A DNA stretch of 64,000 nucleotides from Sulfurospirillum sp. 1612 (GCF_036556685.1 NZ_CP140614.1:992001-1056000); one strand, 5' to 3'; counted from the stretch's first letter, positions 11,295 to 26,802 are shown. A program made the numbers and translations. Notes: generated by a model not told the origin, from the sequence alone.

Positions 11295-11810
11295 CTAGTA
11301 GAGGCCAAATTTGGCATCAGATCTTTTATATAAGACACGTACTTTGTCTTCTTTATCATGAAAGATCATAAATTGTTGTCCGTTTTCTTTGAGTTCGGCA
11401 AGCGCGTCATCAACATCGATTGGTTTATAACTCTCTAATCGCATTGGTACGATTTCATCTTCTGAGTATTCTACTTCTTCTGTTTCAACTTCTGGTACTT
11501 CTTTTTGTTTGAAACTTGTGACTTTATCATGATGTCTTCTCAATACTTTTTGAGCGCGATCAATCGCTAAATCAATAGCGGCATAAACATCTTTATCTTT
11601 TTGTTTGATGACGACGGTGTTCATATGTGCGAGATTGATAGCAAATTCTACGCTAAAGCCTTTTTTCCCATTTTTTTCATCAGCTGAAAGTATGCATTTT
11701 GTTGAAATAATATCTAGATTGTACTTTTTTAGTGTATCCACAGCACCTTGTATGTGCCCCTTGATTGAATCTGTCAACTCTAGCTGTTTTCCTACGATAC
11801 TTAAATTCAT
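11295..11810 (-). CDS. hpf: long-form ribosome hibernation promoting factor HPF
   Basis: A 171-residue protein with an N-terminal S30AE domain (MNLSIVGKQLELTDSIKGHI; HMNTVVIKQKDKDVYAAID) and a C-terminal dimerisation domain (about residues 115-171: MRLESYKPIDVDDAL, FMIFHDKEDKVRVLYKR). The long form joins 70S ribosomes into inactive 100S dimers in stationary phase. I place the start at 11810, where an AGGAGA site (11820-11815) is correctly spaced; an upstream in-frame start at 11834 would lie before that site. The leader carries a hairpin, and its promoter abuts a tandem repeat array. Confidence 0.92.
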   Translation of the reverse strand: MNLSIVGKQLELTDSIKGHIQGAVDTLKKYNLDIISTKCILSADEKNGKKGFSVEFAINLAHMNTVVIKQKDKDVYAAIDLAIDRAQKVLRRHHDKVTSFKQKEVPEVETEEVEYSEDEIVPMRLESYKPIDVDDALAELKENGQQFMIFHDKEDKVRVLYKRSDAKFGLY

Positions 11811-11824
11811 AATGTCTCCTTGAT

Positions 11825-11840
11825 GCCCTACCATTAGGGC
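11825..11840. terminator. 6-bp hairpin in the hpf leader with a plus-strand T-run
   Basis: GCCCTA (11825-11830) pairs with TAGGGC (11835-11840). On the plus strand it is followed at once by TTTTTT, the form of an intrinsic terminator, although no plus-strand gene ends here. On the minus strand it lies in the hpf leader about 5 nt upstream of the ribosome site, where it could tune translation. Confidence 0.4.
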
Positions 11841-11876: not shown

Positions 11877-11898
11877 AAACTCAGCTTAAGCTGAGTTT
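11877..11898. terminator. perfect 22-bp palindrome, probable terminator of the pilin-like operon
   Basis: AAACTCAGCTT (11877-11887) and AAGCTGAGTTT (11888-11898) are exact reverse complements. Read on the minus strand, the transcript from the upstream pilin-like genes folds into AAACTCAGC-TTAA-GCTGAGTTT and then runs into TGTTATAATTTT. The right arm is the start of the first 31-bp repeat; the left arm is an inverted copy of the same sequence. Confidence 0.55.
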
Positions 11899-12107
11899 CT
11901 GTGAAAACGAAGACAATAGGGCTGAGTTTCTGTGAAAACGAAGACAATAGGGCTGAGTTTCTGTGAAAACGAAGACAATAGGGCTGAGTTTCTGTGAAAA
12001 CGAAGACAATAGGGCTGAGTTTCTGTGAAAACGAAGACAATAGGGCTGAGTTTCTGTGAAAACGAAGACATTGGGGCTAAGTTTTCTGTGAAAACGAAGA
12101 CATTGGG
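11890..12107. repeat. 31-bp direct tandem repeat array, seven copies
   Basis: The unit begins GCTGAGTTTCTGTG and ends GACAATAGG with no spacers. Copies 1-5 (11890-12044, 31 bp each) are identical. Copy 6 (12045-12075) ends ATTGGG in place of AATAGG, copy 7 (12076-12107) is 32 bp with GCTAAG and an extra T, and an eighth fragment starts at 12108. Divergence therefore increases toward the pilin-like gene. Each unit holds a small TTTC-TGT-GAAA dyad. The array fills most of the 312-bp gap between the hpf start and the pilin-like gene at 12123. Confidence 0.95.
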
Positions 12108-12122
12108 GCTAAATTTTTGTAT

Positions 12123-12572
12123 TTATGGTTTTTGTATCGTACGTCTGTGGATTCGGATTGGCTCTAGTGACACTGTTGGATTGGTCGTGACAATGGTATC
12201 GATGATAACCGTGCGATTGGAATCGGCTGTGACGATATCCGTCCCTAGTTGTGTACATTTTGGCGATGCTGGGAGGTTGTCGCCAATATATTGAATTGTG
12301 ATATTGACATCATGAGTGTAATTTGTACCAGATGTGGGGTATTTGATATCGATATGATTCAAACAGCCATTAGTTGCATTGACTTCATGTCCACTAATCG
12401 CTAGTAATGCGTATTCGGTAGCACTTTTTGCCAACAATTCCGCTTCTATTTTAAGATACTGATCGGTAGTCTGTTTGGCTGATTGTGTTGACATAGAAAG
12501 CGCCAAAATCGATAGCGTTGCTACGACAAATAAAAAGATAATTGCGGTGATAAGAGAAAAACCTTTACGCAT
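12123..12572 (-). CDS. MshP-like minor pseudopilin
   Basis: A 149-residue protein starting MRKGFSLITAIIFLFVVATL: a short basic leader, G|FSL cleavage-type junction and hydrophobic helix, like class III prepilins. Position +5 is not glutamate, a feature shared with GspK/PilX/MshP-type minor pilins. The rest is a small globular domain with a cysteine pair (GCLNH and PKCTQ). Start ATG at 12572 overlaps the previous stop by one base (TAATG). It is the last of four coupled genes. The MshP identification rests on helix type, size and the gene order. Confidence 0.7.
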   Translation of the reverse strand: MRKGFSLITAIIFLFVVATLSILALSMSTQSAKQTTDQYLKIEAELLAKSATEYALLAISGHEVNATNGCLNHIDIKYPTSGTNYTHDVNITIQYIGDNLPASPKCTQLGTDIVTADSNRTVIIDTIVTTNPTVSLEPIRIHRRTIQKP

Positions 12573-13504
12573 TAGTACACCACCTTTTCTTTGCAAAATG
12601 CAAAGTCATAATTTCCACTTTGGTTGCCATCACGAATACAGAGTTTGAGTCGGATGGTATCTCCGATTTTTGTAAATTTAAAGGTACTGACATGTTCGCA
12701 TAAGATCGCTTTTGATGTATTGGTATCATCATACTTTTCATCTTCCCACGGTTGATAATTGTAGTGCAGGGTGAGATTAAAATCATCAGAATTACTACCT
12801 TCAGGAACAACAGAATAAGCACTCCACGCCAAATAATAGTGCTCAAAAATCTCATCTAGCGCAGAAGTGTTTTGATCAAAGTTCAAAACATCATTGGCAC
12901 CTGAGGTATAAGAGACTTTATAGGTATATTCTCCTTTGGTTCCATTCCATCCATATTGGGAGACATCAAAATTTGATTGACCATTAAAGATGAGTGCAGG
13001 TCTGTTAGCGGCAACACTATTATCGAGTCTCACTTTTCCATTAGAGAGTGCTCCGATGATTTGATCGGTAGTATTGAGATCACTTCCGATTGTCTTGAGC
13101 TTGCCATGAGCACCTAGCGCTTTGTTTGTTGTAGCATTATTAAGATCAATAAAACCACTCCATCCTGGATTATTCACACCTCGAAAACTCTCATTATCAT
13201 ACCCAATCCACTCTAAAATCTGATAGGAATCATTAGCATCGGTTAATGATACATAATGAGGAGCTGGAGTTCCCGCTGAATCGGTATCTCTAGCGATGAT
13301 GCTGTCTTTTATACGAAATTGTAAGCGTTGTGCTATCTCATTCAAAACCAAATCACTTTGTGCTTGTAAGCGATTGATGGCTCTGGTTTTGATGTAATTA
13401 TCATAAAGTTTTACGATGATTTCTGCTCCGATACTGGCGACGATTCCCAAAACGACGATGACCATGACCAGTTCAATCATTGTAAAAGCAGGTTTTTTGC
13501 GCAT
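12572..13504 (-). CDS. MshO-like prepilin-type protein
   Basis: A 310-residue protein with the leader MRKKPAFTMIELVMVIVVLG: prepilin peptidase site before FTMIE, glutamate at +5, and a long hydrophobic helix. A globular domain of about 270 residues follows, with cysteines near the C-terminus (LCEHV, LCIRDG, FAFCKEK). Large minor pseudopilins with this shape include GspJ and MshO. The ATG overlaps the upstream TGA by one base. Likely inserted in the inner membrane and processed by PilD, then incorporated at a pilus or pseudopilus tip. Confidence 0.78.
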   Translation of the reverse strand: MRKKPAFTMIELVMVIVVLGIVASIGAEIIVKLYDNYIKTRAINRLQAQSDLVLNEIAQRLQFRIKDSIIARDTDSAGTPAPHYVSLTDANDSYQILEWIGYDNESFRGVNNPGWSGFIDLNNATTNKALGAHGKLKTIGSDLNTTDQIIGALSNGKVRLDNSVAANRPALIFNGQSNFDVSQYGWNGTKGEYTYKVSYTSGANDVLNFDQNTSALDEIFEHYYLAWSAYSVVPEGSNSDDFNLTLHYNYQPWEDEKYDDTNTSKAILCEHVSTFKFTKIGDTIRLKLCIRDGNQSGNYDFAFCKEKVVY

Positions 13505-14166
13505 CAATAGGCCTTTCTTAATAGAGTGCTTTCACCAATATTACAAGAATATGTCCGAAGTGTAAATGGGGTTTCATTGTTTCCTGTGACACTTAAGGTA
13601 AGCAGTTTGATATTGGTTGATGTTCCACTAGCGGTCGTCCCAAATACAAAGTTGATATCATTGGCGTTATAATTGGCTGTATCACTCACATAGACTACGC
13701 TGGTTGTTAGATTAAAATCTTTAAAATGATAGTCAAGATTTGTATTTTGTGCGGGTAATTGTAGTTGACTTGGTGTGGCACTGTTAAAGTCATCAATATC
13801 ATCAAGATCTCCACTATCAGGACCTAGATTTGCGGGGGAAGTCGAGGCATTGAGGTCGGTGAAAAATTTCCTTCTTTTATCTCCTTTGACATGACCGATT
13901 CTACGAATACCATCACTAGAGACATTGAGATCACTGTCACCATCGGTGGTTAAGACACGCACGGTATCATTTTGGATGGAATTTTCATCCCATCGATAGG
14001 TCAAAGTATCTCCTAGTTTTGTCCGAGCTGCCAAGATGACTTCTTGCTGCATGGTATAGGCATTGTTGTTTTGCGTTTGTGTGAGCAACATAGGCAAGGT
14101 CATCACAGCAATTCCCATCACAACAATGGCGACGATGAGTTCCAGCATAGAAGCTGCAGAGCGCAT
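13504..14166 (-). CDS. MshD-like prepilin-type protein
   Basis: A 220-residue protein starting MRSAASMLELIVAIVVMGIA. The SMLEL segment preserves the type IV pilin helix start with glutamate at +5 although the residue before the cut would be alanine rather than glycine. The remainder is an Asp/Thr/Asn-rich globular domain with a single cysteine (TYSCNIG). Start ATG 14166 overlaps the giant gene's TGA by one base. In MSHA loci mshD precedes mshO and mshP; the same D-O-P order is seen here. Confidence 0.75.
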   Translation of the reverse strand: MRSAASMLELIVAIVVMGIAVMTLPMLLTQTQNNNAYTMQQEVILAARTKLGDTLTYRWDENSIQNDTVRVLTTDGDSDLNVSSDGIRRIGHVKGDKRRKFFTDLNASTSPANLGPDSGDLDDIDDFNSATPSQLQLPAQNTNLDYHFKDFNLTTSVVYVSDTANYNANDINFVFGTTASGTSTNIKLLTLSVTGNNETPFTLRTYSCNIGESTLLRKAY

Positions 14167-17100
14167 CACCAGTTCAACCTTCTGTTAGATCGTGTAGAGA
14201 CATTGGTATCAATGACATGCCCGAGTTTCCCTTGTCCTGCCCACTCTTTGCCATCTTCTTGAAATTCAAGTATAAAATCTTTTGGATCATACGTAATCCA
14301 ATCGGTTGCATTGATTTCAACTTTGTCGATATACGGTAGATTATTTGGATCGGCAACAACATCCAGAGTATCGGTACCATTGGTCGGATTTCCAAGGAGT
14401 GTGGCATTGGTATCATCTGAGCCACTTGCATAATTAGTGCCAAATCGTACGTTTTCTACAGTAGAATATCGACTAACATTGCCATCGATGACATTGGCAT
14501 GTTTGGTATTGATGTACCAATTGATTGAGTCGATACTCTCTCCACCATTGATTGACATCAAGTTTCTATCCGCTGGTGTGCAATCTTTACAATAAACTTC
14601 ATAATAGACAATGGCTTTGCCACTATTGCCTGCAAATCGATAATCTGGAGCGTGAACACGACCATAATAAAAGTGGATATCATTGGTTGCATTGATGTCT
14701 GTTCCTGCTCCTGCTGTTACATCAGCTAATGCAATACCTAAGTAACTTGTGATAGAGCCTTTGAGCGTTTGTGCATCAATAAGAGCCGGTTGGATCGGTG
14801 TAGTTGCATTTCTCTCTACGGCCATTCGAAGCGTAATCGCTGAAGTTCCTGAGGTAAAGTTATTGTCATAAGCAACTGTATCAGCGTGATTGTTCGTAGC
14901 ACTGATATTGTTATCAGTGGTCATATCGGATGTATTTTGATCATTGGCAATACTGATGCGAAGGGCTGAGAGATCTTTGCTTTGGGCATTGTACGTGAGT
15001 GCTACATCGACATCATTGGCAAAACACATACTAGAGAAGAATGTTGTGGTGTTGTTATCAACATTTTTTGCTTCTACCGTGGTATCGATAGTGGCATACA
15101 TTGGATCGATAATTGGTTGGTTTACCATATAGGTAAAACCATCGTTGTAATCATTAACCGTTGTATTGGTAAATTCAAAATGATCCGGTTGAAATACGAT
15201 TGATGTCGAATTACCATCCACACTACAACTAATCAATCCAGCACTACTATCGTTTTGACCGATAGAGCTGGCATTACAATCTCCAACAATCGAGTCTCTG
15301 TAGGTCCAATTGCTATCTTTAACAACAAGTTTGATAACCCCGACATTGGAATACTTAGCATTGCTTGCTGTGGCGAATCCATCGGTGAAATTGGCTGTAC
15401 TGATATTGAACTCATTGGAATCAATACATGCGTTATTGGTTGAAAATGCAGAATCTAAGCCGATGTCGATATTGCCTGCTGCCTTAGATAGCGAGGCATT
15501 GTAGGAGAGTGAATCATTGGACCCATTATAATCAGGTGCGTGTATGTCAAGTCCCAAGTTTGAGGCTCCTGAATTGACGATGTAATAGGCTCCTGAATGC
15601 GTTGCTCCTGTGAGATTTATATCAAAAGAGGCCGGTCGGGTCGTAAAGACATCACCAGCATATGGTGCTGAAGAGTTGAAATCATCAGGATATAGTTTGG
15701 ATTCGGTGTGGTTGCCATCATTGGTTCCGATAGAAATATTCAAATCAAATCCTAACTCTCTTGAAGCGCGATCATAAGTCGTGCCACTAGTGAGCCAATG
15801 GATATTATTGATATCTGTCAATGGAATACCGACATTTGCATCAACGACTGTTGGGTAAATATCTTTTGATGTTCCATTGTAAATATCTTTGATGCGAAGA
15901 GAATTGATGAAAATTGATGTATTGGCATCCACATCCAGTGCGCTGATACCTCCGAGTGAAATATTGAGGTCAAAAGGGGCATTGACCACTTTTGCTCCGA
16001 CGGTACTTCTACCGATATCTTTTGCCACGACAACAATATTGTCCCAGTTAAAATAGACCGGACTTGATTCTACCGGTAGGGATACTTGAGTGACGGTACC
16101 ACCGGAGAGATTATAATCTTTCAATGTTGGATTGGTAAAGGTAATGGACATACTATTGGAAAATGTTTTTCCGAAAGTAGCCAGAGAATTAATCGTAGCA
16201 TTAAATTCTATCCATGCTACATGATCTTGAGCAAATGATGAGAAAGAGTAAACCAGAGTATTTGAACCAACATCATATGTGGTATCACTGTAACTGTGAT
16301 TAATCAAGTTTGGATCAAGAACATAAGTGGCGTTTGTATCATTACTGTCTGCTCTATCTTTAAGTACCACGGCACATTGGTCTCTTGTTGATTCACTGCT
16401 GTTATACGTTGGATCTTCACAAGGTGAGCCTACTTGAAATGGCGTCAGATTTGTGACAACGCTACTGTTGTTTTCATAGGTGAGTTCTCTCGGAAGTGCA
16501 TCTGTGATATAAACATCATCTGCAGAATCATCACCTGTATTGAGGATAGTGAGACGGTATTTGACGATATCACCCCGTCTTAATTGTGGTGATGGATCAG
16601 AACATTTATTCCATCCAGCAGCTGGATTAAGAGGTTCTTTGAGCTTGAAACACTCTTTATAAGAGTCAATGAAATCTGGGGCAAAAATTTGTGTTTGCAT
16701 AGAGAGCATTTGTACAAAAGCTTGCTCACTAGGATAGGCAATACCACTTAATACATCAGATTCATTGACCGCAATCGTCGCTTTGGTGTGATTTTGTGAA
16801 TGTGAGAGATAACAAGGTCTTCCATCAGTATTGGTGCAACTGCCGTTTCCATCATAATTGCTACTCAAGTTGTATTGATCCATATCATTACCCAGATTAT
16901 AAGTTAAACCAGGATTTTTCGTTATGAGATTATTGTTGACATCTTGGAACGTAATGGTATCGTTAAAGAGGTTGTCTGTATTGTTTGTATCCTCAATAAC
17001 CGCATTGGCAGTACCATTTTTATCATCAATGGTCATACCCTCTAAAGAGATCTGTTTATCACCACCTTGGACAAAATCATAAAGAGAGGATTCTATGTCT

Positions 17101-20100
17101 CCAGAAATTGGGGTGATAAATCCACTAATATCAATTGGTAATTTTGCTTGACCACCTGGACCTGGTGGGACTAAATCAACAAAACCACTAAATACGGACA
17201 AGTTCTTAAATTTGACTTCTCTGTGATATCTGTGGTTGACAGAATAGGCCACTACCATAGTCCAACCTCCAAAATATCCAAACGTCGTACCACCTTTCCA
17301 TGATGTTTGTGTGACGTTGTTTTCTGTTGTGGTGGATGGAGCAAAATCTATGGTATCTCTTCCTTGTGTGACTTGCATATCTGCGACGGTATAATTACCA
17401 TTTATATTGCCATTTAAATTTTTAATAATATCTGTGATATCTGCTTTGGCACCATAGAAGATTCTGTAATTACCAATATTATCCGTGTTATTTGCATCTT
17501 CGTCGCCTTTTTTAAACTGATAATAATCCGCTCGATTGGAAGGATCGGCGGTACCGTTCAAATCAGTTTTTGCAACGGTTATATTATGAACGGAACCATC
17601 TGGGGTGATGAGTTTGACGCTATTAAAAGGAATATCATCTCCTGTTTCATTTTTATCATCTCCATGAAGATGACCGCCCCAGAAAAGACCCGCATATTCG
17701 ATCGTGATATTGTCTTCAGGATTGGAAGTATTGGTATCTACGATGTGTAGAAGTGCGGAGGAGGCATTGGTGTATCCTCCCACAGAATGTGCGTAGGTTG
17801 AGTTTACTTCATCAAGATTTTGTGAACCGTCATAGTTTTGAGGTACTAATATTGTATTACCAATGGTTGCGATATTACCATATTTATTGACGCTAACATC
17901 GTTGTTGAAATATTTCAAAGACGGTCTTAATATATCCACACTTGTTGCTGAAGTATTGGTGTCAATCGTCGTATTGACATCATTATTGTTCATATTTGTA
18001 TCTACCGTACTGCTACTGACCGATGCATCATTGGTAAGTCCTGATGCTTGATTTGGTGAAATCATGGTGACATAGAGTTCGACATTGTTTCCCATGCTGA
18101 GATGATTCATACTACATGAAAAGGTATTGCTTACAGGGGTAGTACAGCTAACAGTTGCGTTGGATTCATTGGTGTTGGTTGTGATACCAACGTAGGATAA
18201 GCGACTATCAAAATGATCCGTAATCGTGATATTTTGTGCATCGGCATAGGTGCTAATATTATCAACTCTCACCGTATAAACAAAAGCGGAACCTGGATTT
18301 GGTTTGATTGGGGAGGCCGTTTTTGTTATTTTTAGATCGGTACCGATGATATAGTTTTGTGCTGTGTCGCTATTGTTTGCACTATTTTCATCGGGTTGAT
18401 TTGTGGCCGTAGCTGTGGCGGTATTGGTAATATTGACTTTGTCAACATTGGCTGTTTGTGCATTGAGGGTAAATGTTTCAGATTCATTTTTACGTAGAAT
18501 CAAAGTATCTGGGAAGGTACAGTTGAAACTATTGGTTCCTGTACAGTTGAGGTTTATTGAGTGTGATTCACTGGTATAGCTTACATTAGGCGGTAAGGTA
18601 TCTGTTAGCGTAAATCCTTTTGTCACCGGTTCATTCGATAAATTGGTTACCGTGATTGTATAGGCAAGATTTGATTCTGCTCCAACATTTCCGGAAGGAT
18701 TTGATGTTTTTATGACACTAAGATCGACACCACAAATTGTTTCTGGTCTATCTGTTCCATCATAATTTTTCAGCGCTTTTTCGTAATTGTAAATGTTCTT
18801 AACCGCTCTTGCATCCAGAGCAATGTTATAAATTTCCACTTCGTCAATGTAACCTTGAAAGTGTTCTATTGTTTTATTATTATTTAATTTTGTTCCTCCA
18901 TTAACATATCCTATCCCTGTATCGTCGCTATGAGCGTTTAATCTCGTTCCATCGCCACTTCCAAATGAGATACCATTGAGATAAGCATGAAAAGCACCAG
19001 ACTTGAGAGTATCACTATCCTCAGCATCAAGGGTTAACACGACATGATTCCATTTATTGATTTGTATCGGGGTATAAAGATATGTTCCAGAACTCCAGCC
19101 TCCCTCTTGATTCCAACCCCCAACATACAAGTTTGAGCCTCTTAAATATATTGCCAAACCTCTAGCACTGCCACCTTCTTCGTAGATAATTTTATTTCTA
19201 TTATTAGCTGTTGTCGTATTGGAATCAAACCAGAGAGAAATTGATCTTTTATTGTGGGCTGCTGTATTTATCAATGTATTATCGGGTATGTCTATGTAAT
19301 CATTACTTCCATCAAAACTACCACTTCTCCACGCGGTTGAAAAGTTGTTGTCATCATAGGCTAAGATATGGTTGATGGTTTGTGCACCATTTTTAGCTTT
19401 ACCATTGACACCATTGATACTATCAACAACTTCTCCATTACTACCATCCCAAGAACACTCTTCAAAACGATAATCGACATCGGGCTTAATAGGATAGACT
19501 TTGACATCAACCGAGGCAGTATGACTCACTAGATTCTCTTGAGGCGTTGGCGTTGTGACTTCTACTGTGCTGGTTAAAGGATCAATCAAAGTATTGGTAT
19601 TTGGCATCGTTGCAACTACAGTGATGTTTTTATTTTGGTTGTAATCAAGTGTCGAATAGTTACAAGTAACGGATTGATTGGAATCGGTGAGATTACAATC
19701 ACTAGCCCCTGAAGTGATATAGAGTGCATTGATAGTTTTTGAAAATGTTTGTTTTAATACGACATTATGAGCGGTTGAGATATTGATATCGCTCACGTTT
19801 ATATTGTAGGTGACATTTCTGTCTTCTAGCACATCAGTTGGGGTCGCGTTGATGCTGACGTTAAGATCAGCTCCGATGACTCTTACATCTGGGGCAGTCG
19901 CATTGATAGGATTTTCTATCGAATTTGAGTTGATATCGACGGCATTGGTATAAGTGCCAATTTTATTTGCGGGTGCTTTGACATTAAGTCTTAGGATACT
20001 CTCTCCACTATATGCTTGTATCAAAGGTTGTGTGCAAGCTACTGTATTGCCCGTGGCGGTACAACTCCAATCACTATCACTTCCATTATTGTCAATATAA

Positions 20101-23100
20101 GTTAAATCTGCAGGTAAGATATCAGTCGTATTAACATCGATTGCAGGATTTCTACCGGTATTGTTGATATCTAAAACATAAGTATAAATTTCACCCAATG
20201 CTACTTGTGTTTTGGGAGCATCAAAGGTGGCATTTAGCGTGGCACCTTCGAGTTTGATTTTAACATCATCGTTATTATTACTATTATCCACTTCGGCTGT
20301 ACTGGAGTTGATATCCGCAACATTGGTGACATTTCCTATACTACCAGATGTTTTAGCAGAAACCAATATGTCCGTTGCTGTTGTATTTGGCGCAAGCGTG
20401 CTTCTTGTACATGTTAACGTATCTGAGGCAAATGAACAGTTCCAATCACCCGGATTGGTAATATTAAAATCACTAAAACCATTTGGCATCACATCGGTGA
20501 GCGTGATATCTTTTGCTAGTCCTTTATCTATATTTTCAACAGATAATTTAAAATCTACAGTTTTCCCAACACCCACTGTGATATTATTATCATGATACAA
20601 TCCATCGCTCAGAGGATCAGGGTCATGTGCATATTTGGTGATTTTTAAATCAGCTCCTCTTATCGTAGTCGTGATGACTTTACTTTGTCCGGTTGTATTA
20701 TTTGCATCATCACTTCCTACAACAACAGCAGTATTGGTGATGTTGCCATTGTAGTTTGGCGCTATTGATGAGATGGTTATAGGATTTGCCGTAGAACTCT
20801 TGGCTAAGGTTGGAAGGTGGCATATAATCTTTGAATTATTTGCATCAAATGCATCACAATTCCATCCGGTTCCACTTGCATTAACATCACTCCATCCCGG
20901 AGTTGCAGACATGTTGTTGAAGCTAAAGGTGACATTGATGTCTTTTGCATCGGATAAGCCTTGGTTTTTGATACTGATAAAGTACTGATGGGCTCCATAA
21001 GCTCCGACTGGGTTGGGACTTTGTGTCGGATCATTAGCAAAGACGATATCCCCACCTTGTATCGTTGTCTCCCAACTTGCTTTATTTGGAGTAGAAGTTT
21101 CGACAGTACTGGTAAATGCTTCTACATCATTTCTAGCCGTTCCGGTATAGTGAGGGAGCGTCGAGTTAAATGTAAATGTTGTTGATTCATGACCTGAGAG
21201 ATTTTGATCATATATAAATTTTTTGCTTCCATTGACATCCGTTCCTAAACTCCAATGTGAGTTGGAGATATTTCCATCATAAGTGGCGCCGTTTGGAAAA
21301 GTATCAAGGACATATATATCAGAAGCAGGCACTGAACTGCTATTTGTAACTGTCACGCTATAGGTGACGACATCACTCATCCCAGCGATCGCAGGACCGC
21401 TTTTAGTGATAGAGATATCAGTACCTTGCGTTGTTGTCGTTATAGTATCTGTATTATCTGGCAATAATCTTGTGAGTTCTGGAGTTGAGTTAGTAACATT
21501 GGCTTCATTACTCAGAACTTCTCCCGTGCTATTTGGAGTGGTGACATTGACGGTGATATCTGGTGCTGAATTTGATGGTGCAACCGTGTTTCCATAAGAA
21601 CATGTAAGGATATGACTTGCTTCAGTACAATTCCAATTGGTTCCACTTGCACTTATAAAATTGACATTTGCAGGTAAGGTGTCTTTTACCACGATAGTAT
21701 CAGCTGTCGTACTTGGAATATCATGTGCCGCAGTTCCGGTTCTTGGATAATTTCTCGTGGCAAGTGTATAACTGAAGGATTGATTTGCTCCAACTGGATC
21801 AGCTGATACGGTTTTGACGATGGACATATTGGCACCGCGAACGAGTGTATTGGTATGAAGATATCCATCTCCAGTGGTTGGTGCATTATTGCCTAGATTT
21901 TGATCGCTAAGGGAAGTTTCTGCTTTGTATCTATTGACTATGAAGTTTTCGTTTTCATCATTGATGTCAAAACTTGCAGCATTAAAAGCATTGGAGTTTA
22001 CGGTGGCTACCAAAACCCATCCGTTTGCAACAGTTAAAGGAGTATTTAGTCCATCATTCATAGTACAAAATAGTGTTGCTCCCGCTGTCGTAGGGTTATT
22101 ACAAGTAAATCTAGCATCTGGTGTGACTGAAATATTTGTTATGTTATCTGGTAAAATATCAGTTACATTAACATCTGTAATGCCTGGCGGTGTTGTACCA
22201 GATATTGGGGCATTTCTGACATAAATATCATATTTTAAAGTACCATCGATAGCGACATAGTTTTCAGTTGTACCATAATAACTTCCATTGATAGTTTTTG
22301 CTGCTTGCAAGTCAATATTTATAACTTCCGTAGTCGCAGTATCAGTATTGTTATCATAGCGAGATTCAGATGTGTCTGTCGCTGTTGTAGCGGTGTTATA
22401 TACCCAGTCATGAGCTGGTCCTGCTGTGACATTAAAACTGACGATGTTTTGATTGTATCCTACAGGAATTGTAAGATTGGAATCATTGGTGTGACATGTG
22501 ATATTTGAACCGTTGATTGAACAGGTCCAATCAGAACTTAAAGTGCTTAGAGAACCATTGACATAAGTGACATTTGAGGGGATTGTGTCATTGATCTCTG
22601 CTCCATAGGCTGGAGAATGTCCTATATTTTGTAAATTAATCGTGTATCCATAAGTTGAATGACCGGCGACTCTTGCTGGGGCCGTTTTGGTGATAGCAAG
22701 ATCTGCACCTTCTACATCAAGATTGACAGATGCGGTATTATTCGCCGTATTTTTTTCCAGTGTTTCTGAACCGGTGGTTGCAGTATTGAGATAGGTTCCA
22801 TTTGTATTGGGCGCATTGGTTGTGATGGTAAAAGATTTACTGGCATTTTGAGCAAGATCTCCTAGAGTACAGTGTACGGTTTGTCCTGAAACATTTGACC
22901 CGTCATTGGTACAGCCGTTTGTTGATATATTTGTAAAGCCATTTAGAAGTGTATCATCAACATAAGCATTGGTGGCGGTCGCAAGTCCAGTGTTTGTAAC
23001 CTTTATAGTATAGGTGACACTTTCATTGAGTTGTGCTGTTGTAGGGAGTACAGATTTTGTTATACCAAGATCCGCTCCTCTAATAGTCGTTCCAGCAATT

Positions 23101-26100
23101 GCATGATTGCTAGTGGCGATTTCTTTCTCTGCCGTTGTAGTAGATACATTGGCCTCATTGCTTCTTACCTGATCAATGGCATTGATATCATTTGGAGCCG
23201 TTGCCTCGATGGTTATATCTGTTGTTGACGCATTTAATGCAAGAGATGGCGCGTAGGAACAGCTAAACCCCGTATCTGTCACATTGCTACACGTCCATCC
23301 TGCCCCAGCACTTAAGGTGGATGTTTTAAGTTTAAAACCATCCGTCCCTGATTGTGTAACATAATCATCTAAAGTAATATTATTAGCAACTGCTTCCCAT
23401 TGGTTTTCTACATGAATGGTATATGTTACCGTTCCTTTGAGAGCGACATTAGTTTTATCGACATCTTTAAATACAACAATATTTGCCCCATGTACTTCTA
23501 CACCCCAATTTTGTGTATCATTGCTTGTATTGCTTTGGCTTGTTGAGGTCACTGCTTGGCTTTTATTTAAGATATCACTGTTACCCGGGAAATTACTATC
23601 GTAGTTTGGTGCGGTTGCACTGATGGTGATTATTTTAGAAGCATTTTTAGCGATATCTCCCAGCTGACAGGTGTAGGGTGCCCCCGTAGTGTAATTTGTC
23701 CCACCGTTACAATCTATGAGTATATTTGTAAAATCTCCATCTGTAGTATTTGCCGTATTGAAAAAGTTGGTGATATTGACATCTTTTGCTGTGGCACTTC
23801 CGTCATTTCTGACTTCAACGCTAAAGACGACATTTTCATTGGCAACTGCAGTGGTGGTTGTCGGTGGTATCACAACGATATCGGCACCTTGTATTTCGGT
23901 GCTTGCACTATCGCTTACTGTAGGTTGTGGCGTTGTTGTCGTTGTTACCGATGCGGTGTTGGTTCTGGTTCCCAATGTCGCATTATAGGGGACATTGACC
24001 TTGAAATGTATCGTAGAGCTTGCACCTTCGGCTAAAAGTGTTGGTCTTGTACAGTTCAGTGCTGAAGTTCCAACTCCAGAACAGGACCAACCATCTGAAT
24101 TTATAACAGAGTTGATGGTGTATCCTGCCCCTAAACTCGTGGCTAGATTATCGCTTAAAGTGAGGCTTTGTGCATCTGAATGTGAGGTATTTGTCACTGT
24201 GATATTATAATCGATCAACCCGCCTGCTTCTACGATAGGGGTTGCTACTTTATCGATGGTGAGGACAACACCAGTAACATTGACGTTTGCGGTGTCGGTA
24301 CCATCATTTGAATTGAGTGAATGACTTATCTTGGCGGTATTTTGTACCGTCCCCGTAGTGGCCGATGGAGCCTGGGCTTCAAAAGTGATACTGCTACTAC
24401 TGCTTCCTGGAATAGTTGCTTTAGTACAATGAAAGGTACCGGTAATAGGAGTAGCTGGACAATTCCATCCATCATTAGATAAGATATTGATGATGCTGAC
24501 CCCTGATGGGAGTTGATCTTCTATATCTGCATCAGATGCAGGAGCGGTATTGACATTGGATACATTTATGGTATAAGAAAAGGTTTTGCCAAGACCTACA
24601 TCGGTGACATTGGCACTTTTGGTGATATTGAGATTAGGTCCTTTGATGTGAGTGGTTACAGTATCAGATGTATTGGTAGTATTTTGCTGGTCTGTATCGG
24701 TTGTGACACTCGCTGTGTTAGTAACATCATCGAGACTAGTGGTTGGCATCTTGACCTTAACGGTAAAACTCCAAGTCTCTCCTGGTGCCATACTTGTTTT
24801 AGTACATGTAAGCGTTTGTCCACTTCTAGAACATCCTGCTGAATCACTGATAAAACTCATATCAGGATCTAACGTATCGGTGACGACAACATTGTCTGCA
24901 GCTACTTCACCGGCATTGGTAGTTTTTATTGTATAGGTGTATTCTGTGCCAATATCGGTACTGCCATTATCAGGTTTTTTTACAATATTTAAATCCGCTC
25001 CCAATACTTGTGTTGTTAGAGTAGTTGAATTGTTTGTCGTACTGAGTTCTCCCGTGGTCGTTGATGCCGTGGCATTATTGGTGATGGATTGGTGTGTGGT
25101 TGGCATCGTAACGTGTAAATCTAAATCATAAGCTTCATGATACGCAAGTGTTGTATCTTTTAAAGTACAATTTATCGTCGAAGAGCCACTACACGTCCAA
25201 TTTGTGTTGTCATAGCTTGATAAAGTGACACCTGCTGGTAATGTGTCGCTTAGTGTGACATCATAAGCAGGACTCGCTCCATTATTAATGACATGCAATC
25301 TATAAATCACATTGCTGCCCACACCGGCATTACTGGCATCGATTCCGTTTATAAGTGAAGAAGTAAGAACGATGTCGGCGGCTTGGACGACGACTGCTGC
25401 ACTAGGTTCTAGTGGCATCGTATTATAATCACTTGAATCGGTATTTAATCTAGCGGTATTGGCAATAGGTTGTTCATTTGAACTAGCGGGAGCTTTGACA
25501 TTGATAACTAAGGATTTGCTATCTCCTACTGCTAAATCCAATCCGCTACAACTGATAGTACCTGAAGATTCTGAACAGGACCAGCCACTTGGCGTAGAAT
25601 TAAAAGAAACAAAACTTATATTTGCTGGCAATGTATCACTCAGCGTGACATCTCTAGCCGCAACAGTGGTTGTGCCTTTATCTGGATTGGTGACGTTGAT
25701 TGTATAAGTAAAGGCTTCATTGAGTTGTAAAGGTGTTTTAGAGGCGGTTTTTGTGGCATGTAGATTTGATTTTCCGACGCTAAATGTTAGACTTGTTGTG
25801 TCGTTACTAGAATTTGGGTCCGGAATGGTATTTGCTACTGCTGTGACGCTTGGCGTGATAGTCCCAACAGAAGAGGGTGCTGTAATTTGCAAATCGAGTG
25901 TATTAGAAGAAGATGCGTTGTGTATGGCATAGGCATACGTACACGTGACAGTTGTAGAATCACTAGTACAACTCCAACCTGTGCCACTGCTGGTGTTATA
26001 ACTTGCTCCTGTTGGCAGTGTGTATTCTATCTTTTCATTTGTCTCATAGATGTCGGTTTCATTACTAGGATTTTGATTGGACAGAGTGATATGATTATGA

Positions 26101-26273
26101 AACACTTTTCCCGCTTCAATCGTAGTCGTAGGAGCTGTCAATGAGACACTCAAATCAATGGTATAATCAGTCGCATTTAATTTGGATGTTGAGATAAATA
26201 ATATAAATAAAAATATTAAAAAAGTATATGGAGAAAAACGCCTATTTATTGCTCTTGTAAGATAAAAATTCAT
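14166..26273 (-). CDS. giant exported MshQ/DUF11-repeat adhesin-like protein
   Basis: A 4,035-residue protein. The N-terminus MNFYLTRAINRRFSPYTF plus a hydrophobic stretch is a Sec signal peptide, probably cut after KLNA. Seventeen DUF11-type Ig-like repeats of about 120-140 residues follow (to about residue 2263), most starting GADLxITK and holding YTIxVTN, DTLP and one cysteine pair. Then come a LamG-like domain (about 2264-2505), two more DUF11 repeats, a module with YAGLFWGG and GGWTMVVAYS (about 2780-3200), one further DUF11-like repeat, and a DUF6701/MshQ-like tail with VFQPDHFEF near 3694. There is no LPXTG or outer-membrane barrel. I chose ATG 26273 because AGGGAG stands 7 nt before it; longer starts are TTG and lack a signal peptide. 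It probably forms a long tip or surface fibre carried by the three pseudopilins encoded downstream. Confidence 0.85.
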   Translation of the reverse strand: MNFYLTRAINRRFSPYTFLIFLFILFISTSKLNATDYTIDLSVSLTAPTTTIEAGKVFHNHITLSNQNPSNETDIYETNEKIEYTLPTGASYNTSSGTGWSCTSDSTTVTCTYAYAIHNASSSNTLDLQITAPSSVGTITPSVTAVANTIPDPNSSNDTTSLTFSVGKSNLHATKTASKTPLQLNEAFTYTINVTNPDKGTTTVAARDVTLSDTLPANISFVSFNSTPSGWSCSESSGTISCSGLDLAVGDSKSLVINVKAPASSNEQPIANTARLNTDSSDYNTMPLEPSAAVVVQAADIVLTSSLINGIDASNAGVGSNVIYRLHVINNGASPAYDVTLSDTLPAGVTLSSYDNTNWTCSGSSTINCTLKDTTLAYHEAYDLDLHVTMPTTHQSITNNATASTTTGELSTTNNSTTLTTQVLGADLNIVKKPDNGSTDIGTEYTYTIKTTNAGEVAADNVVVTDTLDPDMSFISDSAGCSRSGQTLTCTKTSMAPGETWSFTVKVKMPTTSLDDVTNTASVTTDTDQQNTTNTSDTVTTHIKGPNLNITKSANVTDVGLGKTFSYTINVSNVNTAPASDADIEDQLPSGVSIINILSNDGWNCPATPITGTFHCTKATIPGSSSSSITFEAQAPSATTGTVQNTAKISHSLNSNDGTDTANVNVTGVVLTIDKVATPIVEAGGLIDYNITVTNTSHSDAQSLTLSDNLATSLGAGYTINSVINSDGWSCSGVGTSALNCTRPTLLAEGASSTIHFKVNVPYNATLGTRTNTASVTTTTTPQPTVSDSASTEIQGADIVVIPPTTTTAVANENVVFSVEVRNDGSATAKDVNITNFFNTANTTDGDFTNILIDCNGGTNYTTGAPYTCQLGDIAKNASKIITISATAPNYDSNFPGNSDILNKSQAVTSTSQSNTSNDTQNWGVEVHGANIVVFKDVDKTNVALKGTVTYTIHVENQWEAVANNITLDDYVTQSGTDGFKLKTSTLSAGAGWTCSNVTDTGFSCSYAPSLALNASTTDITIEATAPNDINAIDQVRSNEANVSTTTAEKEIATSNHAIAGTTIRGADLGITKSVLPTTAQLNESVTYTIKVTNTGLATATNAYVDDTLLNGFTNISTNGCTNDGSNVSGQTVHCTLGDLAQNASKSFTITTNAPNTNGTYLNTATTGSETLEKNTANNTASVNLDVEGADLAITKTAPARVAGHSTYGYTINLQNIGHSPAYGAEINDTIPSNVTYVNGSLSTLSSDWTCSINGSNITCHTNDSNLTIPVGYNQNIVSFNVTAGPAHDWVYNTATTATDTSESRYDNNTDTATTEVINIDLQAAKTINGSYYGTTENYVAIDGTLKYDIYVRNAPISGTTPPGITDVNVTDILPDNITNISVTPDARFTCNNPTTAGATLFCTMNDGLNTPLTVANGWVLVATVNSNAFNAASFDINDENENFIVNRYKAETSLSDQNLGNNAPTTGDGYLHTNTLVRGANMSIVKTVSADPVGANQSFSYTLATRNYPRTGTAAHDIPSTTADTIVVKDTLPANVNFISASGTNWNCTEASHILTCSYGNTVAPSNSAPDITVNVTTPNSTGEVLSNEANVTNSTPELTRLLPDNTDTITTTTQGTDISITKSGPAIAGMSDVVTYSVTVTNSSSVPASDIYVLDTFPNGATYDGNISNSHWSLGTDVNGSKKFIYDQNLSGHESTTFTFNSTLPHYTGTARNDVEAFTSTVETSTPNKASWETTIQGGDIVFANDPTQSPNPVGAYGAHQYFISIKNQGLSDAKDINVTFSFNNMSATPGWSDVNASGTGWNCDAFDANNSKIICHLPTLAKSSTANPITISSIAPNYNGNITNTAVVVGSDDANNTTGQSKVITTTIRGADLKITKYAHDPDPLSDGLYHDNNITVGVGKTVDFKLSVENIDKGLAKDITLTDVMPNGFSDFNITNPGDWNCSFASDTLTCTRSTLAPNTTATDILVSAKTSGSIGNVTNVADINSSTAEVDNSNNNDDVKIKLEGATLNATFDAPKTQVALGEIYTYVLDINNTGRNPAIDVNTTDILPADLTYIDNNGSDSDWSCTATGNTVACTQPLIQAYSGESILRLNVKAPANKIGTYTNAVDINSNSIENPINATAPDVRVIGADLNVSINATPTDVLEDRNVTYNINVSDINISTAHNVVLKQTFSKTINALYITSGASDCNLTDSNQSVTCNYSTLDYNQNKNITVVATMPNTNTLIDPLTSTVEVTTPTPQENLVSHTASVDVKVYPIKPDVDYRFEECSWDGSNGEVVDSINGVNGKAKNGAQTINHILAYDDNNFSTAWRSGSFDGSNDYIDIPDNTLINTAAHNKRSISLWFDSNTTTANNRNKIIYEEGGSARGLAIYLRGSNLYVGGWNQEGGWSSGTYLYTPIQINKWNHVVLTLDAEDSDTLKSGAFHAYLNGISFGSGDGTRLNAHSDDTGIGYVNGGTKLNNNKTIEHFQGYIDEVEIYNIALDARAVKNIYNYEKALKNYDGTDRPETICGVDLSVIKTSNPSGNVGAESNLAYTITVTNLSNEPVTKGFTLTDTLPPNVSYTSESHSINLNCTGTNSFNCTFPDTLILRKNESETFTLNAQTANVDKVNITNTATATATNQPDENSANNSDTAQNYIIGTDLKITKTASPIKPNPGSAFVYTVRVDNISTYADAQNITITDHFDSRLSYVGITTNTNESNATVSCTTPVSNTFSCSMNHLSMGNNVELYVTMISPNQASGLTNDASVSSSTVDTNMNNNDVNTTIDTNTSATSVDILRPSLKYFNNDVSVNKYGNIATIGNTILVPQNYDGSQNLDEVNSTYAHSVGGYTNASSALLHIVDTNTSNPEDNITIEYAGLFWGGHLHGDDKNETGDDIPFNSVKLITPDGSVHNITVAKTDLNGTADPSNRADYYQFKKGDEDANNTDNIGNYRIFYGAKADITDIIKNLNGNINGNYTVADMQVTQGRDTIDFAPSTTTENNVTQTSWKGGTTFGYFGGWTMVVAYSVNHRYHREVKFKNLSVFSGFVDLVPPGPGGQAKLPIDISGFITPISGDIESSLYDFVQGGDKQISLEGMTIDDKNGTANAVIEDTNNTDNLFNDTITFQDVNNNLITKNPGLTYNLGNDMDQYNLSSNYDGNGSCTNTDGRPCYLSHSQNHTKATIAVNESDVLSGIAYPSEQAFVQMLSMQTQIFAPDFIDSYKECFKLKEPLNPAAGWNKCSDPSPQLRRGDIVKYRLTILNTGDDSADDVYITDALPRELTYENNSSVVTNLTPFQVGSPCEDPTYNSSESTRDQCAVVLKDRADSNDTNATYVLDPNLINHSYSDTTYDVGSNTLVYSFSSFAQDHVAWIEFNATINSLATFGKTFSNSMSITFTNPTLKDYNLSGGTVTQVSLPVESSPVYFNWDNIVVVAKDIGRSTVGAKVVNAPFDLNISLGGISALDVDANTSIFINSLRIKDIYNGTSKDIYPTVVDANVGIPLTDINNIHWLTSGTTYDRASRELGFDLNISIGTNDGNHTESKLYPDDFNSSAPYAGDVFTTRPASFDINLTGATHSGAYYIVNSGASNLGLDIHAPDYNGSNDSLSYNASLSKAAGNIDIGLDSAFSTNNACIDSNEFNISTANFTDGFATASNAKYSNVGVIKLVVKDSNWTYRDSIVGDCNASSIGQNDSSAGLISCSVDGNSTSIVFQPDHFEFTNTTVNDYNDGFTYMVNQPIIDPMYATIDTTVEAKNVDNNTTTFFSSMCFANDVDVALTYNAQSKDLSALRISIANDQNTSDMTTDNNISATNNHADTVAYDNNFTSGTSAITLRMAVERNATTPIQPALIDAQTLKGSITSYLGIALADVTAGAGTDINATNDIHFYYGRVHAPDYRFAGNSGKAIVYYEVYCKDCTPADRNLMSINGGESIDSINWYINTKHANVIDGNVSRYSTVENVRFGTNYASGSDDTNATLLGNPTNGTDTLDVVADPNNLPYIDKVEINATDWITYDPKDFILEFQEDGKEWAGQGKLGHVIDTNVSTRSNRRLNW

Positions 26274-26424: not shown

Positions 26425-26802
26425 CTAAATATAGCTAGAAATGCTTTCTATAATACCAAAATCCTGATGTTTGCTCGCATCAAGTAGGACTTGTGCCATA
26501 ATCTTTCGATCATGATTAAAAATCAAAGGGGCAATAAAATTGACCGTGGAATCCTCAATAGGCGAGGTCGTTATCATGATATTAAAAATAGAGATATTAG
26601 TGTTTTCATCTAGCTCCAATAATTTTTTAAAGTATGCCGGTACTTCAAAATCATAACTTCTTAACATAAAAGGGTTGATGAGTGTAAACTCTGTCGTATT
26701 GTCAGGGCTTTTTAATTTCATAAAAAAGTCATCAATTTTTTCTAAATTGACAGTTTTTAGTCCCTCAAAGCCTAAAATTGGTGATATGATGTCAAATGTC
26801 AT
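26425..26802 (-). CDS. fliW: FliW, flagellin-binding assembly factor
   Basis: A 125-residue protein with the FliW fold: ILGFEGLKTVNLEKIDD at the N-terminus, FTLINPFMLRSYDFEVP in the middle and NFIAPLIFNHDRKIMAQVLL toward the end. FliW binds flagellin and relieves CsrA-mediated repression of flagellin translation. Length is normal for the family. It is divergent from bamD across 146 bp and stands next to the start of the giant adhesin operon. csrA is not in the window. Confidence 0.9.
   Translation of the reverse strand: MTFDIISPILGFEGLKTVNLEKIDDFFMKLKSPDNTTEFTLINPFMLRSYDFEVPAYFKKLLELDENTNISIFNIMITTSPIEDSTVNFIAPLIFNHDRKIMAQVLLDASKHQDFGIIESISSYI

Follow-up and report, generated by a model that had tools for sequence, protein, structure and literature searches.

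The window analysed here is a 64-kb stretch of DNA that covers bases 992001-1056000 of a complete genome of 2,377,931 bp. Within it, four genes on the minus strand, coding for a giant exported protein and three small prepilins, lie between fliW and hpf. The features are as follows, with positions counted in the window.

26425-26802, minus: fliW (PF02623, E = 4e-24), the 5′ neighbour in most relatives, used as synteny marker
14166-26273, minus: giant exported adhesin of 4,035 aa, the MshQ-like slot protein
19497-26111, minus: first DUF11 array of the giant, residues 55-2259, 17 repeats (PF01345; repeat HMM and Cys count)
18801-19313, minus: LamG-like domain (Laminin_G_3), residues 2321-2491 (PF13385, E = 3e-15)
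17967-18674, minus: two more DUF11 repeats, residues 2534-2769 (repeat HMM and Cys count)
16668-17768, minus: second shared domain, residues 2836-3202, two beta-sandwiches, common to 41 slot proteins
14169-15683, minus: conserved C-terminal domain, residues 3531-4035, DUF6701-related, Ig-like sandwiches, ending in NRRLNW
13504-14166, minus: MshD-like minor prepilin (D), 220 aa, prepilin N-terminus AASMLELIVAIVVMG; same gene in relatives
12572-13504, minus: MshO-like minor prepilin (O), 310 aa, N_methyl 23.5 bits (cut-off 21.2); family alignment
12123-12572, minus: MshP-like minor prepilin (P), 149 aa, weak PilX_N match; C-terminus RRTxQKP kept in relatives
11295-11834, minus: hpf (S30AE; PF02482), the 3′ neighbour in most relatives, used as synteny marker

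An earlier note had described four minus-strand genes joined by one-base stop/start overlaps, and we found that the coordinates and reading frames were correct. The giant gene runs from the ATG at 26273, with GAGTG on its 5′ side, to the TGA at 14166. The adhesin/D, D/O and O/P junctions read TGATG, TGATG, and TAATG, and in each of them one base is common to the stop codon and the next ATG. The giant protein starts with a hydrophobic N-terminus, whose end lies near ...STSKLNATDYT. The MshD-, MshO- and MshP-like prepilin N-termini of the same note were also seen; that of O passes the N_methyl cut-off, and those of D and P fall below it, their class III prepilin motif being visible by eye only. 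The MshP-like protein has Thr, not Glu, at +5. In addition, a 31-bp unit is repeated 7.1 times (97% matches) at 11890-12110 of the window, directly 3′ of the MshP-like gene, and no further copy was found in the rest of the genome.

Pfam agreed with the LamG and DUF11 domains noticed before in the giant. DUF11 was found in 20 stretches (E = 6e-178), the 20th repeat lying at residues 3234-3318. Exactly two Cys, spaced 8-15 residues, occur in 19 of the 20 repeats and in 16 of the 17 repeats of the first array, the repeat at 1634-1738 having none. Thus, the repeats would have about one disulfide each, as the Cys pattern suggests. Furthermore, TIGR04226 matches and the positions of K, D and N suggest that isopeptide bonds may be present in the DUF11 repeats. 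No match of the giant to the PilY1/PilC beta-propeller family was found by Pfam up to an E value of 1. The predicted second shared domain gave jelly-roll-like fold matches. GH86 accessory domains came first (Z = 9.9, 123 residues aligned, rmsd 3.9), and a module that binds porphyran also matched (Z = 7.7); this might be a weak hint of sugar binding.

The locus is widespread in Campylobacterales. An MshO match was found in 55 of 60 related genomes, and many of the sampled genomes are of one family, so that these counts are not independent. Named members of the MshO protein family come from Sulfurospirillum diekertiae, S. cavolei, S. arcachonense, Sulfurimonas, and many environmental MAGs. The order fliW-(proC)-[adhesin]-D-O-P-hpf was seen in most of the module loci read, and in about 20 relatives the adhesin, D and O genes are tightly coupled, either overlapping by 1, 4 or 7 bases or having 1-2 bases between them. 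The giant itself is intact in two other genomes: one of the same genus (G006; 64% identity over 3,981 aa) and one of another family (G039; 35% identity over 3,797 aa). Because of this recurrence in relatives and these two intact homologues, the four-gene order and its tight coupling are more than chance. The G039 homologue (L055:3579-15815) is full length with 4,078 aa, and no mshP-like ORF was recognised beside the O gene of that genome. The earlier note had proposed a search for the same gene order elsewhere in Campylobacterota, and it is indeed present. Its view of an MSHA-type module with an MshQ-type adhesin in first place is supported, except that this arrangement is no peculiarity of the present locus; it is the rule in the phylum.

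The slot adhesins are 572-4,078 aa long; proteins in slots of the window type (B) start at about 300 aa, some of them being probably fragments or other genes, with a median of about 1,380 aa. Comparison of the slot proteins indicates that the outer part of the adhesin is freely exchanged between species, the anchor end being conserved. In addition, three lineages (L059, L163, and L164) have D-O-P without any adhesin. Thus, D-O-P should be functional without an adhesin, a point against the tip model proposed below.

The earlier note proposed that the module would use machinery encoded elsewhere. In agreement with this, we located two MSHA-type machines in the same genome. It also encodes a single prepilin peptidase, at 1,392 kb, and has PilT-like ATPase genes at 370 and 808 kb. 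Operon A, at about 857-874 kb (L039:5732-20000 and L040; G000:C1 857,732-874,219), is a complete MSHA-type operon; it includes a 1,404-aa beta-helix adhesin as its first gene, D, O, P and a further prepilin, then MshI/J/K-like genes (by position) and genes for secretin, AAA, TPR, MshE, and MshG proteins. Operon B lies at 1,066-1,075 kb, past the right end of the window and about 60 kb from the module. It encodes proteins of 506, 216, and 148 aa, a secretin (499), an AAA protein (270), proteins of 297 and 187 aa, an ATPase (586), and a platform protein (413). The secretin of machine B matches the MshL equivalog TIGR02519 with 271 bits (cut-off 250.2) and GspD with 163 bits. Its ATPase matches MshEN (PF05157; 53 bits, cut-off 23.1) and PF00437 (440 bits), and the platform protein (MshG) matches PF00482 (160 bits). 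The AAA protein has an AAA_22 match of 34 bits, its assignment as MshM resting on position. No pilin gene was found in operon B, and no major pilin was recognised in the window or in operon B. Two prepilins (162 and 176 aa) lie by themselves at 1,622.4-1,623.4 kb (L041:8381-9404), away from both machines, and are candidate major pilins of machine B.

To see which machine goes with the module, ATPases and O proteins of 60 genomes were typed as A or B by the better of two queries. The A and B ATPases formed separate groups, with a support of 99/99 for A and a weaker one at the base of B. Of the 20 genomes that have ATPase A, 19 carry A-type O, as against none of the 40 that lack this ATPase (Fisher’s exact test, P = 1e-14). 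The window-type O is independent of machine A, being carried by 33 genomes of 13 families that have no ATPase A. Since A-type O tracks ATPase A and window-type O does not depend on it, the typing makes it most likely that the window module is served by machine B. The direct association of window-type O with machine B is weak by itself (P = 0.013) because both are nearly universal. Furthermore, seven genomes have ATPase B and no window-type O, and three of these have A-type O only. Thus, either the coupling is not strict or the drafts are incomplete. We also considered machine A, with its complete MSHA operon, as the partner of the window module, and the co-occurrence of O proteins and ATPases disfavours it.

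An HMM of the C-terminal domain, grown from residues 3531-4035 of the giant, matched 82 of 89 slot proteins, and the match lay at or near the C-terminus in nearly all of them. Slot proteins of module type A were among the matches, and the A and B domains are homologous. Relatedness to DUF6701 had been suggested by the earlier note. By Pfam, neither the window protein nor its own C-terminal domain matched PF20419 above the gathering score, so the suggestion failed directly; it held by way of relatives, as 12 of 69 homologues of the domain match DUF6701 (best E = 3e-23). For instance, the window protein finds L053 with E = 4e-30, and the G010 protein of that slot finds PF20419 with 5e-24. These intermediate sequences, and only these, indicate that the window protein is homologous to MshQ/DUF6701. 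The domain was predicted as beta-sandwiches (pLDDT 84, pTM 0.80). In the fold search, the Ig-like adhesins FdeC (Z = 10.7, 292 residues aligned, rmsd 5.0) and InvE (Z = 8.2) were the top matches, and no sequence relatives were found in the PDB. Such a match of predicted folds reflects a common arrangement and shows no function.

For the last residues of the giant, the structure prediction has a low confidence (pLDDT about 50), and they are conserved nonetheless. Trp is the final residue in 75 of 83 B-slot proteins, 63 of them with [RK][RK]xxW, and seven of the eight proteins without it also lack the C-terminal domain. In the A-slot proteins, the terminal residues are KxFR in all six. The giant is the sole match to N[RK][RK]xxW-stop among the real ORFs of its genome, and a whole-genome search for the NRRxxW tail found no other real protein. 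The simplest reading is that the conserved tail would be a docking peptide.

The giant is also rich in potential glycosylation sites. D/E-x-N-x-S/T is the sequon of PglB, and we found 67 such sequons in the giant and 9.7 ± 3.1 in shuffled sequences. At the N-x-S/T sites, acidic residues were enriched at position -2 only (OR 6.9, P = 6.5e-15), with no significant enrichment at nine other offsets. Most slot proteins have the same sequon enrichment, and other ORFs of the window do not (0.08 vs 1.67 per 100 aa). Two Campylobacteraceae MAGs (L100 and L111) are among the few whose slot proteins have no enrichment (odds ratio near 1). In addition, 52 of the sequons are common to the G006 orthologue, and Asn residues in sequons are conserved more than other Asn (P = 0.0013). 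The sequons are unevenly distributed: residues 1-689, the N-terminal DUF11 repeats (24207-26273 of the window), have none, and the last 800 residues have about 3.2 per 100 aa. A STT3/PglB homologue was found in a 738-codon open frame (G000:C1 906938-908173). The giant is thus probably N-glycosylated by a PglB-type transferase, and its distal (N-terminal) end may be free of sugar.

Taken as a whole, we proposed, with a probability of roughly 0.65, that the giant and D-O-P are the pilus-tip module of machine B. The adhesin and D-O-P would be made as a translationally coupled unit. The giant would be exported by Sec; each DUF11 repeat would acquire about one disulfide, and the PglB-type transferase would probably add N-glycans. 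A minor-pilin complex of D, O, and P would then hold it at the C-terminal, DUF6701-related end (NRRLNW), and would prime and cap a pilus. Machine B (G000:C1 1,066-1,075 kb) would build this pilus with the help of the PilT-like ATPases and of the prepilin peptidase at 1,392 kb, which is shared. About 25 beta-domains would project outward as a fibre with the N-terminus distal, and this adhesive stalk would have a length on the 100-nm scale. A more general reading for Campylobacterota is tentative and rather doubtful: the adhesins, up to 4,000 residues long, heavily N-glycosylated, and freely exchanged, may carry a short C-terminal peptide ([RK][RK]xxW or KxFR) as an address, through which the matching minor pilins would assign them to either of the two MSHA-type machines that coexist. 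A transformation-type pilus would thereby become a long-reach adhesion device.

Other explanations should be weighed against the machine-B tip. Machine B might be mainly a DNA-uptake pseudopilus of the Cts type, with D-O-P at its tip and the giant as a DNA- or surface-binding accessory of transformation. The transformation operon of Campylobacter is ctsRDPXEF (PMC10893306), and machine B resembles it in the way its secretin, NTPase, ATPase, and platform genes are ordered, gene order being what was compared. Furthermore, D-O-P directly follows fliW-proC in two lineages, whose adhesin slot is empty, and Campylobacter has proC (cj1076) and ctsT (cj1077) at that place (PMC8308473); this gene position by itself suggests that D could be the counterpart of CtsT. 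However, LamG, DUF11, and beta-helix domains occur in the slots that are filled; they point to adhesion more than to the binding of DNA, and we regard the transformation reading as unlikely.

The co-occurrence data bear on a further alternative, that the window module is another tip for machine A or that both machines share both tips. The presence of two machines and two tip modules within one genome, the homology of the C-terminal domains of the A and B adhesins, and the three genomes with machine B that carry A-type O only would all fit such sharing. Against this, A-type O tracks machine A, window-type O occurs in 33 genomes without it, and the tails differ, being KxFR in A and [RK][RK]xxW in B; we judge it a little less probable than the transformation reading. 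It is very unlikely, finally, that a type II secretion-like pseudopilus, with no pilus being built at all, exports the giant to act as an adhesin either free or bound to the cell. The secretin, ATPase, and platform proteins match T2SS families too, and the lack of a recognised major pilin in the window and in operon B would agree with this route; nevertheless, MshL is the one secretin model that passes its cut-off (271 bits vs 163 for GspD), and relatives have separate T2SS-like ATPases that branch apart.

MSH systems have already been detected in Epsilonproteobacteria (Denise et al.; PMC6668835). In V. cholerae, the mshB-mshQ structural operon ends with mshD-O-P-Q (PMC4624765), and MshQ is among the MSHA parts without known function (PMC9815625). 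A plasmid search found no gammaproteobacterial MSHA loci for comparison. Like the MSHA pilus of Vibrio and Shewanella (mshI-F, mshB-A-C-D-O-P-Q), the system described here has an MshL-type secretin, an MshEN ATPase, a platform, an MshM-like AAA protein, and D-O-P minor pilins beside an MshQ-like protein. However, the adhesin comes first here and last there, the tip module is detached from the machine operon, and two parallel systems occur per cell. The adhesin is also much longer, exchanged between species, and rich in sequons, and most of it consists of DUF11, LamG, and other domains, unlike MshQ. PilY1 with the minor pilins PilVWX is similar in that a large exported protein, thought to cap the pilus (PMC7541494), works with minor pilins; the giant differs by its lack of a PilY1/PilC family match and by another C-terminal domain. 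What is new here is that the adhesin of an MSHA-type tip module is exchangeable, very long, and probably N-glycosylated, and that the module lies apart from its machine and coexists with a second such system.

As the outer part varies, the anchor and last residues are fixed, and the family is order-wide, the question of MshQ function becomes testable; so do the docking of the tail to minor pilins and its choice between two machines in one cell. If true, free-living Campylobacterota gain a tip adhesin system on a pilus perhaps related to the transformation machine of Campylobacter, and a very large predicted target is added to bacterial N-glycosylation.

The two machines may also differ in control. 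In the comparison of MshEN-repeat ATPases (L039:17922-19589 and L144:5440-7200), a repeat of the R[LI]GDxL type was found in all six A ATPases (KLGDLL in one) and in none of 12 B or basal ATPases. An R[LI]GDxL...Q repeat is typical of MshEN domains that bind c-di-GMP. Furthermore, a GGDEF gene lies just upstream of operon A. Thus, it is plausible from these sequences that c-di-GMP would control machine A and not machine B. Two more prepilins follow operon A on the other strand.
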